From positions 1 through 21,852 of IMG/VR virus record IMGVR_UViG_3300036398_001980: a DNA stretch of 21,852 bases. One strand, 5' to 3'. This DNA is from a virus. The notes below the pieces were generated by a model. That model ran no database searches. It had not been told where the DNA came from and worked only from the letters and a program-made list of their open reading frames with translations. This document shows, in pieces, positions 1,874 to 20,670 of the stretch. A program made the translations under genes and the position numbers. Numbering within the stretch: the first letter of the stretch is position 1; the number at the start of each line of letters is the position of its first letter.

Positions 1874-2942
1874 CCTCCCCGTCCTCCGCGCGTCCGCCAC
1901 GACGCGCTGGCTCAACTGCACCTACTTCGCCGGCCACGAGTGGCCCGAGGGCGAGTCCTCCACGGCGGCCGAGCGCGGCACCCGCGTCCACAACACGATC
2001 GCCCGTACGCTCGGCGCGTCGCCCGAAGGCGCGTTCGCGCAGGACGACGACGAAATCGCCCTCGCCACGGTGGGCGTGACCTACGCGCACGCCATCATCG
2101 AGGAGGCCGGCGAAGGCTGGCATCAGCTCGTCGAGCGTACGATGGTCTTCCAGTCCCCGGCCGGCGTCGACGCCATCCAGGGCACCTGCGACTTCGCCCT
2201 CGTCTCGCCGAGCCTCGACTACGCCGTGCTCGTCGACTGGAAGACTGGCCAGCGGCACGGCGTCTACGAGGACCAGATGCTCACGTACGCATGGCTCCTG
2301 CGCACGCTCTACCCGACCCTGCGCAAGGTCGACGTCCGCGTCGTCTACCTCCAGACCGGCGAGGAGGACCGCAAGATGCTCCACGCCGAGGACTTGGAGC
2401 AGCACAGCCTCCGCATGATGGGCGCCCTCAGCGACCGCTCCGAGGAGCCGCTGAAGGCCGTCGTCGGCCCGTGGTGCCAGTGGTGCCCGGCTACGCTCCA
2501 GTGCCCCAAGAACGAGGCGCTGGCCGTTGCCGTGCAGCGCGGCCTCGACGTCCCCAACATCGACAAGCTCATCACAAAGATCGAGAACGAGGACGAGGCG
2601 GCTACGGCTCACGCGCTCCTCGCCTACGCGAGCGAACTGCTCGCCAAGATCGAGCTTCAGATGAAGGCGTTCGCCCGCTCGAACGGCGGGCGCTTCCGCA
2701 CCCGCGACGGAGGCGAATACTACCGGGTCGAGGCGACCCGCGTGACGCTCGCGAACGACGACCGCGCCCTCGCGCTCATCGAGCAGGCGGGCGCCGGCGA
2801 GGCCATCAAGCCCAGCGTCGCGTGGCCTGACGTGAAGAAGAAGCTCGCCAAGCAGGCGACCGCTCTCGAAATCCTGGAGGGCAACCTCCGCGACCTCAAC
2901 CTCCTCAAGGAAACCCGGTACGACACATGGAAGACCAAGTAA
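1866..2942 (+). CDS. PD-(D/E)XK exonuclease, DUF2800/Cas4-AddB-like, probable RecT partner
   Basis: 358 residues from the ATG at 1866, which has GGGAG about 9 nt upstream; the frame is open further upstream, but the family-like sequence begins here (MRSLPVLRASATTRWLNC). The nuclease core is visible: D109 in GTCDFALVS, D124-x-K126 in VLVDWKTGQR, and the trailing Q137...Y141 of the helix DQMLTYAWLL. C18 (WLNC) together with C204, C207 and C213 (C-x2-C-x5-C) is the spacing of the iron-sulphur cysteines in Cas4- and AddB-type nucleases, so an Fe-S cluster is plausible. Such enzymes resect DNA ends to give single strands for the annealing protein. The C-terminal third (230-358) is helical and charged with no recognised domain. 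The 8-nt overlap with the gene before and 16-nt overlap with the gene after place it in the recombination operon. Confidence 0.88.
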   Translation: MRSLPVLRASATTRWLNCTYFAGHEWPEGESSTAAERGTRVHNTIARTLGASPEGAFAQDDDEIALATVGVTYAHAIIEEAGEGWHQLVERTMVFQSPAGVDAIQGTCDFALVSPSLDYAVLVDWKTGQRHGVYEDQMLTYAWLLRTLYPTLRKVDVRVVYLQTGEEDRKMLHAEDLEQHSLRMMGALSDRSEEPLKAVVGPWCQWCPATLQCPKNEALAVAVQRGLDVPNIDKLITKIENEDEAATAHALLAYASELLAKIELQMKAFARSNGGRFRTRDGGEYYRVEATRVTLANDDRALALIEQAGAGEAIKPSVAWPDVKKKLAKQATALEILEGNLRDLNLLKETRYDTWKTK

Positions 2943-3505
2943 CGATGGAGCAGCGCGTCGCGCTGCTTGAGAACGCGATGGCCCGCACGCAGAAGGAGCT
3001 GTTCGAGCTTCAGCAGGCCATGAAGAAGGTGCAGACTGGCCCTGCGCCTAGCCCCTACGCGCCTGCGCAGCCGGTGCAGAACACGCTCATTCCTGAGCAC
3101 GCGCGCCCGTGGTTCGCTGGCTTCAACGAGCGCGGCTTCCCGCAGGCACGCATCGCCATGCTGCACGAGATCCAGAAGCAGGGCGGCAGCGGTCGTGGCG
3201 ACTGGACGGGCGACCCGGAGGTGAAGCGCGACCCGGCCCGCTGGAAGGGCGAGTCCATGGTCGGACGGCGCTTCTCGGAGACCTCTCCGGAGTGGCTGGA
3301 CCAGCACGCGGGCTTCTGCGAGTGGCGAGCAAGCAAGGACCTGCAGAACCCCGAGAAGGTCAAGTGGGCCGGCTACTCGCTGCGCGAAGCTGCGCTCGCG
3401 AAGGGCTGGGCGCAGGCTCTCAAGAGCGGCGCGGTGAAGGCGACGGCGTACTCGCACCCGCGGGACGACGACGACTTCGCGTCTGACGACGGGATTCCGT
3501 TCTAG
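2927..3505 (+). CDS. Recombination/replication accessory protein with SSB-like acidic C-terminal tip
   Basis: 192 residues. Residues 3-36 look like a short coiled coil (VALLENAMARTQKELFELQQ), then a Pro-rich linker (39-60), then a compact Trp-rich domain at about 60-170 with MVGRRFSETSPEWLD and YSLREAALAKGWAQAL. The chain ends DDDDFASDDGIPF, closely resembling the acidic Asp-rich, ...IPF tip by which bacterial SSB recruits its partners. I see no SSB oligonucleotide-binding fold in the rest. It is encoded straight after the exonuclease with a 16-nt overlap. An in-frame ATG at 2945, two nt after the exonuclease stop, is an alternative start; neither has a good ribosome site. The likely role is handling single-stranded DNA or recruiting host repair proteins, by inference. 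Confidence 0.82.
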   Translation: MEDQVTMEQRVALLENAMARTQKELFELQQAMKKVQTGPAPSPYAPAQPVQNTLIPEHARPWFAGFNERGFPQARIAMLHEIQKQGGSGRGDWTGDPEVKRDPARWKGESMVGRRFSETSPEWLDQHAGFCEWRASKDLQNPEKVKWAGYSLREAALAKGWAQALKSGAVKATAYSHPRDDDDFASDDGIPF

Positions 3506-3507
3506 GC

Positions 3508-3984
3508 ATGAGCCGGTGGACGTACATGGGGACGAGCGAGCTAGCCGCCATCGGTGGTATGCGGGCTGGCGAGGCTCGCCGTCTCATCATCGAAGTCACC
3601 GGCGTCGACCTCTACGGCCGGCCGCAGCGTGTTACGGCAGGGCAGGTCGAGGACTACCTTCGTGAGCATGACGAAGCGGTCCCGGCCCTCCTGCTCGCAC
3701 TCTGCGCCGACAAGCGCGAGTACCCTCGCTGGCTCGTAGACCTGGCGCACGAGTGGCGGCAGGCATGCAAGCGGCTCAAGGGCAACCGCCAGGGTCCGAC
3801 TCCGCGTAGGCCGATGATGGCCGACGCACAGACACTCGACGAGGCTTACGAGATCGCCCAGGTGTTCCCTGAGCTTGAGATCCGCGGCCAGCTCGACGCC
3901 GGTGAATTGCCACCGGAGTACAAGATGAGAGATCACTGGCACTTAGGAGAAGACGATGGGGAAGGCCCAGCGAGAGAAGGGTAA
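3508..3984 (+). CDS. Hypothetical protein, possible HTH domain
   Basis: 158 residues from ATG 3508, two nt after the previous stop. An in-frame ATG at 3526 has a better ribosome site (GGTGGA) and would give 152 residues beginning MGTSELAAIGG, so the start is uncertain. The first 55 residues (TSELAAIGGMRAGEARRLI ... VTAGQVEDYLREH) could be a small helix-turn-helix of the excisionase or MerR type. The middle is Trp/Arg-rich (WLVDLAHEWRQACKRLKG) and the end acidic. It overlaps the following nuclease gene by 29 nt. I do not recognise the family. Confidence 0.75.
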   Translation: MSRWTYMGTSELAAIGGMRAGEARRLIIEVTGVDLYGRPQRVTAGQVEDYLREHDEAVPALLLALCADKREYPRWLVDLAHEWRQACKRLKGNRQGPTPRRPMMADAQTLDEAYEIAQVFPELEIRGQLDAGELPPEYKMRDHWHLGEDDGEGPAREG

Positions 3985-4303
3985 GCGCGGCGAGCGTGCT
4001 ACCGCGAAGGAGATTGCCGAGCGATTCGGCGTGGATGCGCACCGTGGCTGGCAGGCGAGGGACGGTGCCGATGCCCCGGATGTCGTCGGTCTCCACGGCT
4101 GGTGGATCGAGGTGAAGACCGGGAAGAACCTCAGCCCGAAGGCCGCGCTCGAACAGGCCGATGCGGCGCGCAAGCCTGACGACGTGCCGGTCGCCGTGCT
4201 GCGATACGACCGGGAGAGACCCATGGCCATCATGTACTGGGAGGACCTGCTCTTCCTCATGCAGAAAGGCGGCGTCGGTGCGAAGCCGAGCGGTCACGAA
4301 TGA
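3956..4303 (+). CDS. PD-(D/E)XK nuclease, Holliday junction resolvase (Hjc)-like
   Basis: 115 residues with an AGGAG site 6 nt before the ATG, inside the end of the previous gene. The layout matches small Hjc-like resolvases: a basic start (KREKGKRGE-type, E13), the acidic residue D42 in ADAPDVVGL, the E52-x-K54 pair in WWIEVKTGK, and a following helix with Q67 (SPKAALEQADAARK). Its length is right for this group (about 110-130 residues). Family members cut branched DNA or nick at junctions, so here it could resolve recombination or replication intermediates before packaging. A restriction-type or VRR-NUC-type nuclease of similar size cannot be excluded. Confidence 0.83.
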   Translation: MGKAQREKGKRGERATAKEIAERFGVDAHRGWQARDGADAPDVVGLHGWWIEVKTGKNLSPKAALEQADAARKPDDVPVAVLRYDRERPMAIMYWEDLLFLMQKGGVGAKPSGHE

Positions 4304-15663: not shown

Positions 15664-18600
15664 CTAATGCTTGGCTCCGCTGGTGATACGCTTATCGAGG
15701 CCGGTCTTCAAGCCGACGATCAGAGCGAGGTTAGAGAAAGCGGTGCCGTACCCGTGCGTGAGCCCGGTGATGCTTGCCGGCGCCGTCTCCGTGTACGAGA
15801 GCGTGAGCTTCTGCCCCTTCTGCTCCGCAACGTGGACCTCGTACACCTCGCGGTTCTGGTCGTTGTAGACCGCCGTGGCCTCCGCTTCCGTCCAGGAAGC
15901 CGTTTGCGAGCCGATGTTGAGCCCGGCGGTGGCGTAGTCGGTCTGGAGCGTGAAAGACGCGCCATGGGCGTTCCTGGTGGCAGGAGCGCCCGTGCTCGGC
16001 GTCGGGATGGGGCTGCCGATGACGCGCACGCGCTTGAGGCGCTGGTAGCCCTGGATCTGGTTCATGGCGATAGGCGCCGTCTGCCAGGACATCGGCACGT
16101 AGAGCCGCCCGTTGTTCGTCGCGTTCGGCCCCACGTCGAAGAACGTCGAGTCGCTTTGCCGGAACACGACGGTCGTCGAGTTGGCCGAGATTGGCGCCAC
16201 ATAGCGCGCCATGATGTGCGGCGTGTTGCCGACCATGGTGACGGCAGCCTGCGTCCGCACCAGGTTCCCCCACGGGCCGAGGGCGTGCGTAGACCAGGTG
16301 TCTGTCAGGTAGTTGTACGTCGCCCAGGCAACCTGCTCAGCGCCGGTCGCCTGGAACACGAACCAGACTTCGTTGTCCTTGGCGTTGTGCGCCGCCGACA
16401 CGATCTTGCCAAGGCTGGTTAGGCTGTCGTCGAGTTTCAAGCCGACCGGCGTGATGCTCATGTCGCGGGCGAGCAGTTCGATGGTGCGCGCCGACTGGAA
16501 GAACACGCCGACCGGCGTCTCGACGACGCTGCGGTGGTCGATGCAGCCGATGCCGTGCGGCATCCGCACGGGCGTCCCGAGCGTGTTCGAGACGTAGCCG
16601 CGGTTGATGGCGCCGCCCGCGTCGTCCGGCATGTCGCCCGGCACGATGAACGTCATGTTCTGCTTGAAGATGACGAGCACGCTCTCCAGGCTGGCGATGC
16701 CGGTGACAGGGCCGCCGTCCTCGATCTGAATGGTGAGCGCGTCGTTGAAGCCAGGCGCGTCGGTCGGCGATAGTTCCTTCGAGAACCACACGACCGTCGC
16801 GTCGTCCGCACCGCCCGCCACGAGGCGGTTCTGATGCACGGTCATGCAGAGCGCGCTCGGCGGCGGCACGTTGTCGAGCACGCCGCCCGTCGTGTAGAGG
16901 AACGGCTGCGAGAGCAGGCCGTTGTAGTCGCCCTGCGGCCCGTCGAAGCACTTGAAGTTGTTCGTGACGAGGCCGTATGGGTTGTCGTTGACGCCGCCTG
17001 CGTTCGCCGACGAGTACGGCACGACGCCGCGGGTCGCGTTGCGGCTGATCGTGAAGTCGTTCTTGTACTCGGGTAGGAAGTTCGTAAACGGCACGCGGTA
17101 GAACACCGTCGCGAATGGCTCCGCGGTGAAGTACGGCTGGAGCACCGTGCGCTTCGAGTCGGCAGTCGCCGTCTTGAGGCGGTTCGTCAGTTCCAGACGA
17201 GGCACGTAGAAGCCGTAGCGGTACTCGTCGACGTCGACGTCTGGTTTCGTTAGCGTGGCGCTGCCGAATACTCGCTCGGTAAACCGGATCGCAGCGCAAA
17301 CTGAGAACGTCACCGCTTGACTAGGCGCGCTGCGCACTACGCGGCCAGTGCCGTCGACGGCCTCGTAGCACCAGCGGGCGAGGAAGTCGCCATTGGCCAC
17401 GAGCGGGTTGTAAACGCTGTTTAGGACGTTTGTCAGGCCGCCCGCCGTCCTCGGCGCCCAAATAACGACCTTGATCGGAGACCCTGCCGTGGTGATCTCG
17501 ACGCTGTAACCAGACTGGAAGCGTCCATAGTAGTGCGCTGCGCCGGCTTGAGCGACACCCGCTCCCGTATTGTAGTTCGACCCTGTAATTTGCAAAAGTC
17601 GAGGGTCTGCGTATACGGACTGGAAGTCCTTTGTCGGGTCGCCGCCCCACGCCGTCGTGATCCGCGACCAGAACATGTCTGTGTACGCAAGGGTGAACGG
17701 GTCGAATGCGTTTCTGTTTCTAAATCCAGCCTCGTAGGCGAACCAGGGGCGTGAGATGTTGGCCAGGAACGGCCCGGCTCCATTCTCTAGCGTATACGCA
17801 GAAAGCGCAAGGTCGATGGCCGCAGGGGCCGGGGCCGACGTGGCGAACAGATTGGTCGGCGGCAGCGGGTACGCGATGCTCGTCATGTCGCGCTGCGGCC
17901 AGAGGAGCATCGTCGCTTCGTTGCACGAGCTACCGTCGTACGCCGACAGGATGCCGCCGTTGACGATGGTGTAGTCGCCCCACTGCCGCATCGTGCGCCA
18001 GTTGCTCGGCTGCGTCGTGTAGTCGAGCGCAAATACCTCGCTTCCGCCGTCGCTCTGGCCTTGGCGAATGGCGCCACAAGTAAAGCCGACGACCGCGCCA
18101 GACGGGTTCCTCACGGTCAGCCTGGGGCAGTTGAGCGGCGCGGCGGCGATGCGCGCCATGTTCATCGACTCGACGAACACGCCCCTGTTGTTCGAGTAGA
18201 CGACGCCGCCTGCGTACTGGATGGGATTGTTGTCGATGGGGTCGAGCAACGTCTCCACCTGCGCATCTCCATCGGAGAACGAGACAAGGAAAGCGCTGCG
18301 CTGGTAGTCGTCGCCGGATGGCATGAGCACGCAGCCGAGCCGGCCGTACACGGGGTCGATCTTGACGAGGCTGCTGATCATGCGCCACGGGCCGCCCATC
18401 GCGCACCAGATCGGCCTAGCCGTACTGCTCCCCGTCGTCGCGTAGTCGTTGAAGTCGTAGCCGCTCACGTTGTCATAGTCCCACGGGTAGACCTCGAAGT
18501 AGTTGCTTCGGGCAAACGGGCTCACGTAGCCAAGCGGAGCGTCCCCGTTGGGACCGCTAAACGTCGCAGCGCTCGTCGACGACACGGCCAGAACAAGCAA

Positions 18601-20670
18601 GTCGGGGCCGGTGGTGAGCTTCACGTCCCATCGGTGGACGCACTGCTCGACGCCGATGTCTGTCTCAACGACGGCCTGCTGCACCGGGTCCGTGTTCGAC
18701 CCGATGTCGTTAAAGATGTAGTCCGTGCCGCCAATCGCTGCGACTGCGTTGAAGTCGTCGAATACCTCAATCGTCGCCACCGGGACGACATACGGAGCGC
18801 TCCATGCGCCGCTGTACGGGTTTGGCCTCGTCTCAAGCTGCGTAATAGTCGCAAGCGCCGGCACGCCGAGGACGTTAGCCGCGCCGCGGCCATCGTACAG
18901 GTCGACCTCATACGGCGTCCCCGTCCCGTCGAACGCGACGACCGCAAGGCACTTTACCCCGGCGCCAGTCGATAGCCGGCAATATTGAATGGTGTTTGCA
19001 AGCACTGCGGACACAACGGCCGGGGCGCCTCCGAGTTGTGCCCTGGTGATGTTGCGCTGGTCAACCGTGGCCTCTTGAGCGTTTGCTGGAGCCAACGTGT
19101 TCGGGGTCTCAACCGCAACCAGGTTGCTTGGCGGATAGCCATGAAGCGGACTCGGGTAAACTCCAGCGCCAACGATGTCGGTGTTGAGTTGTGAGCCTCG
19201 GTATACGGCCGGATTCATATACGCGGCAGCCGCCGGCGTAGCCTGAATTTTCTCGACCGAGTACGTCTGCGTCGAGCCGTCAAAGAACAGGGCGGTCACA
19301 ATTGCCTGTGTCGAACTAGACGTCGAGTACGTTGTCGGTAGTAGGTAATTTCCAGTCGCGCTGACCGACGCGCTGTACTTAAACTGCTGGCCCGTGCCGC
19401 CACTCTTGAACGTCGAGAAGTTGTCCTCGGTCTGAAAGCCGAGGCGGTGGAGCCATGCGAAGTCGCCGGCCGTGACGACGATGGTGCTGCCAGAGCAAGC
19501 GGCGCGCGTAGTCACGATCTTGCCGTCGAGGTAGAACGGCGCCGCGTCCATCTCGTAGACCATGCGCAGGCCGATGGCGATGGTCGACGTGCCTGGGTCG
19601 GTCTCAAGCACGATGCCGCGGGGCGTGAAGCGCTGCCAGTCGTGGACGCTGAGCCCGGTCGACCCGCTCGCACCCGAGGCGGCGATAACGCCGCCAATAA
19701 GGTTGTAGACAATCGTGAACACACCCGTCGTCGCGCTGAATGATACCAGGCGCAAGTAGGCGTCGGACGAGCCTGGCGACGTATCGTTGTCGCACCAGGC
19801 AAAGAGAAAGTACGGCTGCCCAGGCACGTTCGTGATGTCGAACGCGCGCCAGTACGGGCGCCCCGTGAACGCCGTCGTCGTCGGCGGGTTGGGGAAGGAG
19901 AAGATTTGGGTCGGCTGAACCACTCCGCTTGTCGAGCTGACCACGAACGCCTCGACGACCGCGTAGTTGCGGCGGAACGCAACGACCCAGTGCCGGGTCG
20001 GCCCAGTGTCTGACTGAGACAGCATCATGCGCACGTCGCTGACGCCCGCCGTCGCGACGCCAGATGAGTCGAGGATGCGCGTTGGCGCGGTCACGAACGA
20101 GCCGTCGCTGACCCGCTGCACGGCCACGTAGATGCCGTGCGTCGTCGATGGCTGCTGCCGAATGGCCTTGTCGTTTGTGAGGTCCTGGCCGTTGCGCACG
20201 CCGATGACCCAGGTTGTGCAGCGGAACGTGCCGGCGTCGTTGACCATCGACTCCGTTTCGATGACCTCGCCGCCCGTTGCGTCGACCGGGTGCAGGGTGC
20301 CATAGCAGGACGGGAGGCGATTGACCTCGCGATAGCCCTTAGACGCGGTGGCGCCGACGTACTCGAAGAGCGTGCTGCCTGCCGCCACGAGGAGCTTAGA
20401 GCCGTCCTGCGACTCGTTCGCTCCAACCGTCTCCGCGTCCGCCGGCAAGAGGCCGACGTTGAGCCCAGAGAACGAGTTGGCCGGGTCCCACGGGCTGCCG
20501 CCCGAAACCGAAATCAGGTGCATCCCAGCGCGCTTCTCGATGCGACCAGGCTTGCGCACGACGCAGTTGTCCAGCCGCGCCATGTTCGGCGGCTGAAGCT
20601 GGTCCGGGTCCGTGTGCTGGTCGATGCCGCCGACGAACGGAACCTGGACGATGGAATCACGAGTCGGCAT
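15664..20670 (-). CDS. Very large tail nozzle / stabilisation protein (P22 gp10, T7 gp12-like)
   Basis: 1668 residues. ATG 20670 overlaps the upstream stop (TGATG) with GGAG about 9 nt before. The N-terminus VPFVGGIDQHTDPDQLQPPN, followed by N...GRIEKRAGM, is the start seen in tail nozzle and stabilisation proteins of podoviruses. Near residues 1277-1440 the typical region follows: HQNRLVAGG, VVWFSKELSPTD, VTGIASLESVLVIFKQN, IGCIDHRSVVETPVGVFFQS and DNEVWFVFQATG with YNYLTDTWS, a beta-propeller-like pattern. The part between (about 150-1200) is beta-rich and not recognised. It would close the tail tube below the portal and hold the fibres. T7 gp12 has about 794 and P22 gp10 about 472 residues, so this protein is two to three times longer. 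No frameshift or internal stop is seen. Confidence 0.83.
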   Translation of the reverse strand: MPTRDSIVQVPFVGGIDQHTDPDQLQPPNMARLDNCVVRKPGRIEKRAGMHLISVSGGSPWDPANSFSGLNVGLLPADAETVGANESQDGSKLLVAAGSTLFEYVGATASKGYREVNRLPSCYGTLHPVDATGGEVIETESMVNDAGTFRCTTWVIGVRNGQDLTNDKAIRQQPSTTHGIYVAVQRVSDGSFVTAPTRILDSSGVATAGVSDVRMMLSQSDTGPTRHWVVAFRRNYAVVEAFVVSSTSGVVQPTQIFSFPNPPTTTAFTGRPYWRAFDITNVPGQPYFLFAWCDNDTSPGSSDAYLRLVSFSATTGVFTIVYNLIGGVIAASGASGSTGLSVHDWQRFTPRGIVLETDPGTSTIAIGLRMVYEMDAAPFYLDGKIVTTRAACSGSTIVVTAGDFAWLHRLGFQTEDNFSTFKSGGTGQQFKYSASVSATGNYLLPTTYSTSSSTQAIVTALFFDGSTQTYSVEKIQATPAAAAYMNPAVYRGSQLNTDIVGAGVYPSPLHGYPPSNLVAVETPNTLAPANAQEATVDQRNITRAQLGGAPAVVSAVLANTIQYCRLSTGAGVKCLAVVAFDGTGTPYEVDLYDGRGAANVLGVPALATITQLETRPNPYSGAWSAPYVVPVATIEVFDDFNAVAAIGGTDYIFNDIGSNTDPVQQAVVETDIGVEQCVHRWDVKLTTGPDLLVLAVSSTSAATFSGPNGDAPLGYVSPFARSNYFEVYPWDYDNVSGYDFNDYATTGSSTARPIWCAMGGPWRMISSLVKIDPVYGRLGCVLMPSGDDYQRSAFLVSFSDGDAQVETLLDPIDNNPIQYAGGVVYSNNRGVFVESMNMARIAAAPLNCPRLTVRNPSGAVVGFTCGAIRQGQSDGGSEVFALDYTTQPSNWRTMRQWGDYTIVNGGILSAYDGSSCNEATMLLWPQRDMTSIAYPLPPTNLFATSAPAPAAIDLALSAYTLENGAGPFLANISRPWFAYEAGFRNRNAFDPFTLAYTDMFWSRITTAWGGDPTKDFQSVYADPRLLQITGSNYNTGAGVAQAGAAHYYGRFQSGYSVEITTAGSPIKVVIWAPRTAGGLTNVLNSVYNPLVANGDFLARWCYEAVDGTGRVVRSAPSQAVTFSVCAAIRFTERVFGSATLTKPDVDVDEYRYGFYVPRLELTNRLKTATADSKRTVLQPYFTAEPFATVFYRVPFTNFLPEYKNDFTISRNATRGVVPYSSANAGGVNDNPYGLVTNNFKCFDGPQGDYNGLLSQPFLYTTGGVLDNVPPPSALCMTVHQNRLVAGGADDATVVWFSKELSPTDAPGFNDALTIQIEDGGPVTGIASLESVLVIFKQNMTFIVPGDMPDDAGGAINRGYVSNTLGTPVRMPHGIGCIDHRSVVETPVGVFFQSARTIELLARDMSITPVGLKLDDSLTSLGKIVSAAHNAKDNEVWFVFQATGAEQVAWATYNYLTDTWSTHALGPWGNLVRTQAAVTMVGNTPHIMARYVAPISANSTTVVFRQSDSTFFDVGPNATNNGRLYVPMSWQTAPIAMNQIQGYQRLKRVRVIGSPIPTPSTGAPATRNAHGASFTLQTDYATAGLNIGSQTASWTEAEATAVYNDQNREVYEVHVAEQKGQKLTLSYTETAPASITGLTHGYGTAFSNLALIVGLKTGLDKRITSGAKH

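Follow-up and report, generated by a model that had tools for sequence, protein, structure and literature searches.

The window analysed here is the whole 21,852-nt stretch of a 21.9-kb virus record. A gene for a RecT-family single-strand annealing protein (SSAP) is followed in it by that of a PDDEXK exonuclease and then by an intact ORF of 192 aa, with its ATG at 2927 and its TAG ending at 3505 (Table 1). The presence of a RecT-exonuclease pair next to this ORF, proposed by a first-pass annotation made from the letters alone, is thus confirmed by Pfam and PHROG matches for both genes. The start codon of the 192-aa ORF lies within the final codons of the exonuclease gene. The last 13 residues of the encoded protein are exactly DDDDFASDDGIPF, i.e., the SSB-like acidic tip that had been claimed. 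The description of its body as a coiled coil plus a Trp-rich part also fits: the protein has an N-terminal helix of 30 residues and its 7 Trp are all found within residues 62-161. Downstream, the ORF at 3956..4303 has in addition a weak Pfam PDDEXK_15 match (0.003, below the cut-off of that model). A very long ORF (1,668 aa, 15664-20670, minus strand) is found amid probable structural genes of the window.

Table 1. Genes and protein segments around the SSB-tipped ORF of the window (feature, position, strand, evidence or remark)
RecT-family single-strand annealing protein, 277 aa	799..1632	+	Pfam RecT 1.3e-7; PHROG_561 RecT-like 8.2e-30
PDDEXK exonuclease, 358 aa	1866..2942	+	Pfam PDDEXK_1 9.6e-11, DUF2800 4.1e-9; PHROG_69 4.8e-20
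SSB-tipped protein, 192 aa	2927..3505	+	16-nt overlap with the exonuclease gene, also in L002, L009, L039
Long helix at the N-terminus (residues 7-36), a probable coiled coil	2945..3034	+	AlphaFold model, pLDDT ~97
Conserved core, residues 96-168	3212..3430	+	48-member alignment and model; motif GDPxVKxDPxxWxGxS..G...S..PEYLD..A........A.K....Y...DAARARGWA.R.R; helical hairpin 121-140 / 142-167
Variable low-confidence linker, residues 169-179	3431..3463	+	pLDDT 57-64
SSB-like acidic tip DDDDFASDDGIPF, residues 180-192	3464..3502	+	
Uncharacterised protein, 158 aa	3508..3984	+	Syntenic in L002, L009, L039; no Pfam or PHROG match
Resolvase-like nuclease	3956..4303	+	PHROG_244 RusA-like Holliday junction resolvase 2.7e-16; syntenic in L009, L039

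Relatives of the window protein were retrieved from viral contigs (loci designated L001 onwards). The first search gave (i) the orthologues L001 (100% identity) and L002 (86%); (ii) a distant set, L003-L005, with 36% identity over the core and located in ERF-exonuclease modules. L028, L030 and L031 came from DNA-pattern scans with the core motif, and two profile scans yielded L035, L039 and eventually brought the set to 47 loci. An iterated HMM search over all ORFs of the fetched loci led to 48 distinct members, which were then aligned; most of them are only 23-36% identical to the window protein. All were detected by the sequence of the window protein itself, except L009, which was reached with the exonuclease as query and whose neighbouring protein, 46% identical to that of the window, ends in FDDNFPSDDIPF.

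This family has almost no counterpart in the collections searched. None of the 48 members, each scanned singly, matches Pfam at E <= 0.01; 4 of the 48 match PHROGs, merely over short pieces of families of unknown function. The six members tested against NCBIfam have no match and no significant match was found among PDB sequences. Likewise, tblastn gave nothing for six diverse members against 50,697 phage records, nor for two members against plasmids. Two pattern scans of bacterial genomes retrieved none, the patterns being narrow, so that absence from prophages is not implied. No earlier account of the family was found in the open-licence papers searched. In BFVD, the model of the window protein has a sole confident structural relative, A0A6J5MP36 (E 3e-7, 28% identity), described in UniProt as an uncharacterised protein of an uncultured Caudovirales phage with no assigned function; it probably belongs to the SSB-tipped family.

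All full-length members share the N-terminal helix and a core of ~69-85 residues, whose consensus in the 48-member alignment is GDPxVxxDPxxWxGxS..G...S.CPPEYLD..A......A.K....Y..KDAARARGWA.R.R. Linker plus tip range from 5 to 55 residues. The suggested check, whether the tip is conserved while the body varies, had another outcome: body and tip are both conserved, and the linker is the variable part. Averaged over the family, the core carries a net charge of +3 (range 0 to +8; +2 in P0001) and the tail one of −4. The window gene is under purifying selection, with dN 0.09 and dS 0.52 against its L002 orthologue, and the codons of the tip show synonymous differences.

The pLDDT of the AlphaFold model increases from 76 with 11 sequences to 85.9 with 48 sequences. 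The latter model has three long helices (7-36, 121-140 and 142-167), just two strands of 3-4 residues and a tail of low confidence; its first helix is a probable coiled coil or oligomerisation element. An OB-fold SSB is rejected by HMM and by both AlphaFold predictions; the 48-sequence model is helical and devoid of a five-stranded beta barrel. The lack of a visible SSB fold, noted at first from the letters, is thus upheld by the structure prediction that had been suggested as a check. The protein falls outside the SSB family, because it neither matches the PF00436 profile nor is predicted to have the OB fold. Foldseek searches of the PDB with either model gave no significant hit (best E 3.6 for the 48-sequence model). 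The best VIA-align hit is the hypothetical protein 2yxy with Z 4.9, a value within the range of common arrangements.

The tip was defined in two ways: (i) strict, i.e., [ILVFMP]PF with >=2 acids among the eight preceding residues; (ii) loose, i.e., terminal F or W behind acids. These definitions were set after some of the tails had already been viewed. The strict tip is found in 28/48 members and the loose form in 42/48. The final residue is F in 38 members and W in 4, the penultimate one is P in 31, and positions −4 to −6 are mostly D or E. Among the other ORFs of the same loci, a set which contains non-genic ORFs, only 6/3,791 have the strict tip and one of these is the family itself (thus ~5/3,790). 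With the 30 C-terminal residues shuffled, the mean is 0.045 strict tips per 48 and the maximum 2/48. After single-linkage clustering at 50% identity, tail excluded, the strict tip is present in 9 of 11 clusters. Homologues without it do exist (20/48, of which 6 also lack the loose form), as a scattered minority. Their existence had been put forward as a sign that the tail is a coincidence; such a coincidence is excluded by the background and shuffle controls.

The tip is nevertheless labile, because ~40% of the members lack the strict form: it is favoured within the family without being fixed, and its state switches ~12 times on a weakly supported tree. The L003-L005 lineage as a whole is tipless in the strict sense and ends in ...SEADPAW; other acidic ends of strict-tipless members are EEQIKW, NDGWN and DDTI. 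In the tipless loci, the C-termini of the SSAP and exonuclease were inspected for a relocated tip and none was found. Because of the tipless members and of the ~12 changes of state, the core must have a job which is independent of a perfect tip.

Several other tip-like ends were observed in these records. One family member (L044:4932-5519) has a tip-like PSDDDIQF followed by 10 extra residues (VRAEERWWRP), as if the stop had been lost. In L031, a 125-aa protein predicted to be coiled-coil-like (446-823), upstream of a RecE-like/RecT pair, ends in RRLINEYEEIPF, which makes a second tip-like end in that phage. L011:5807-6055 and an ORF of L010 (82-aa frame) encode small proteins ending in ...DAGDVPF and ...NDDDVPF, respectively; both belong to RecT-module phages from Manatee Spring and their scaffold looks different. 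A 366-residue frame of Salinibacter phage 12_10 (L014:3920-4933, WVL94327.1) ends in ...EDADGELPF; it is probably the RecT-like protein of this locus, in which case the tip would be carried by the annealase itself.

An SSAP and/or exonuclease ORF is located upstream of the family gene in 45/48 loci, at a distance <=20 nt in 41 of these 45. The commonest overlaps are of 4 nt (18 loci) and 1 nt (9 loci), which is suggestive of translational coupling. Two of the three remaining loci, L078 and L082, are near contig ends. In the third, L047, the gene has no SSAP or nuclease nearby and the upstream ORF is cytosine-methylase-like, as judged from its sequence. According to the PHROG scan, 24 of 31 annealase neighbours are RecT-like and 2 Erf-like, while 23 of 28 nuclease neighbours are PHROG_69 exonucleases and 5 RecE-like (PHROG_434); in 14 neighbour ORFs, a PHROG_107 exonuclease and RecT are in one polypeptide. 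ERF genes are additionally present in the L077 and L083 records. The unrelated partner pairs are thus: PDDEXK+RecT, RecE-like+RecT, PDDEXK+ERF and the 5'-nuclease-RecT fusion. Since the members, L009 excepted, were fetched by the sequence of the window protein, one small protein does trail several unrelated annealase/nuclease pairs.

The fusion deserves a separate description. L072:2172-3719 apparently combines a PHROG_107 5'-nuclease-like domain (residues 64-265 of the stop-to-stop frame) with a RecT domain (441-566), and similar apparent fusions occur in ~14 other loci (e.g., L064:3441-4883, L057:2806-4917 and L085:2366-3916). From its predicted domains, such an ORF appears to be a natural single-chain exonuclease-annealase.

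A conventional phage SSB was also searched for. PF00436 has no match in 50 virus records, its controls being positive; this is weak evidence for the absence of an ssb gene because most records are fragments. The other phage SSB types, PF10991 and PF05037, have no match in 30 records, where their controls were silent too.

In bacterial DNA repair, the C-terminal tip of SSB is the chief docking motif, and the tip of the phage family probably acts like an SSB tail. The protein is best read as a general module component, given that its gene trails annealases and nucleases of several unrelated kinds. We favour, with modest confidence, a third component of annealase-exonuclease modules, i.e., an adaptor whose SSB-type docking tip is borne by a new helical scaffold. 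In its favour are the gene linkage, a tip far more frequent than in background ORFs and under purifying selection, the SSB-like linker of variable length, the tail-dependent recruitment of an annealase by the SSB of phage HK620 (PMC5928155), and the position of the gene where many phages have ssb (PMC8093625), no PF00436 gene being found in the 50 records. The exonuclease would expose ssDNA and the annealase (RecT or ERF) would take it over. The SSB-tipped protein, oligomerised via its N-terminal helix, would dock on the exonuclease-annealase complex by its conserved core and display several flexible acidic ...DDxIPF tips, able to fill the pocket usually occupied by the SSB tail. The enzymes brought in by these tips may be those of the module (annealase or nuclease), host partners of SSB, or both; phage and host partners are equally possible. 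Two results do not fit the adaptor easily: (i) 20 members lack the strict tip, 6 of them even the loose form, with ~12 changes of state; (ii) L047 carries the gene away from any SSAP or nuclease.

The main rival to the adaptor is a stand-alone non-OB SSB replacing that of the phage, whose basic Trp/Lys/Arg core would coat ssDNA while its tip would serve to attract the annealase and replication proteins. In many phage SSAP modules the ssb gene neighbours, and often follows, the SSAP gene (PMC8093625); this slot is the one filled by the family. The layout is also SSB-like (core, then flexible linker, then acidic PF tip), core and tail have the opposite mean charges given above, PF00436 was not found in the 50 records, and a precedent exists in ThermoDBP, an archaeal non-OB ssDNA-binding protein in which a coiled coil holds the dimer together (described in PMC8998557). 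However, the charge of the core is modest, much of the strong conservation falls on residues that look structural (G, A, S, P, L), and neither Foldseek nor VIA-align relates the model to the fold of any known ssDNA-binding protein; we regard this reading as rather unlikely. A decoy comes next: the free tip would block the SSB pocket of host RecO, RecQ, RecJ, ExoI, PriA and RecG, sparing phage DNA and RecT intermediates. It has in its favour that a free SSB tip peptide by itself binds SSB partners, which are also the subject of inhibitor work (e.g., PMC5872125), and that the tip of the window protein matches the host motif. It leaves unexplained, however, why the gene so tightly overlaps SSAP/exonuclease genes of several unrelated pairs and why tipless members have kept core and position, and is thus improbable.

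The last explanation is that the acidic C-terminus resembles SSB by chance, in a helical protein which only assists the exonuclease or annealase, as an accessory factor or chaperone. The tipless members, including the entire L003-L005 lineage, and the different acidic motifs at some C-termini would agree with it. On the contrary, the frequency of the strict tip against background ORFs and shuffled tails, the dominance of terminal F and penultimate P, and a tip kept despite synonymous change make a chance tail highly improbable, and it was rejected on the two controls.

A bolder formulation, which we hold as a doubtful but serious possibility, goes further than the adaptor: an undescribed non-OB phage family would replace SSB in annealase-exonuclease modules by means of a helical ssDNA- or annealase-binding core and an SSB-type tip, and would be common to RecT, ERF, RecE-like and 5'-nuclease-RecT systems. 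If so, the so-called «two-component» recombinases would in effect have three components. Annealase-exonuclease pairs such as Red and RecET are in wide use for recombineering, and how portable they are is generally considered to depend on the host SSB. That a phage module encodes its own tip on a different scaffold, next to annealases and nucleases of several unrelated kinds, suggests an ability of phages to provide the SSB link on their own, and the SSB-tipped protein may link phage recombination to repair partners by an undescribed route. If this is true, adding the protein could lower the host dependence of recombineering systems, and the family would be a natural test of SSB tip function apart from the OB fold.

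The comparison with known systems leads to the following picture. The SSB of E. coli has a 9-residue acidic tip, a 56-residue disordered linker and at least 17 bound partners (PMC7145534). The SSB of phage HK620 requires its NDYPPF tail to recruit the annealase Sak4 to ssDNA, and removal of six tail residues decreases recombineering 10-fold (PMC5928155); stimulation of an annealase through the tail is documented for this SSB only. Like these PF00436 proteins, the phage family has an amphipathic acidic PF-ending tip hanging on a low-pLDDT linker of variable length, and like ssb in many phages (PMC8093625, PMC5928155) its gene adjoins that of a single-strand annealing protein. Unlike them, it has no PF00436 match or predicted OB fold, and its core is helical and preceded by a long N-terminal helix.

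As for lambda, the C-terminal domain of Red-beta binds Exo and potentially SSB (PMC9512822, with its reference to Caldwell 2019). No sequence relation to lambda Red (Exo and Red-beta) or Orf was found; the family belongs to the same recombination pathway, with the difference that the lambda proteins bind SSB whereas the family member itself bears the SSB-like tip. Like ThermoDBP, the family would fill the SSB role without OB fold, its model combining a coiled-coil element and a distinct domain. The two differ in their domain of life and in that ssDNA binding by ThermoDBP is experimental, while the phage family is known from sequence and model; no sequence or fold match between them was found, which does not exclude kinship. 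A further comparison is with PriB-SSBc, where fusion of the SSB C-terminus to PriB raised ssDNA binding and PriA stimulation (PMC8509808). Both place an SSB-type C-terminus on another protein; however, PriB-SSBc is engineered and PriB is structurally SSB-like, whereas the family from phages occurs in nature and has a predicted helical fold.
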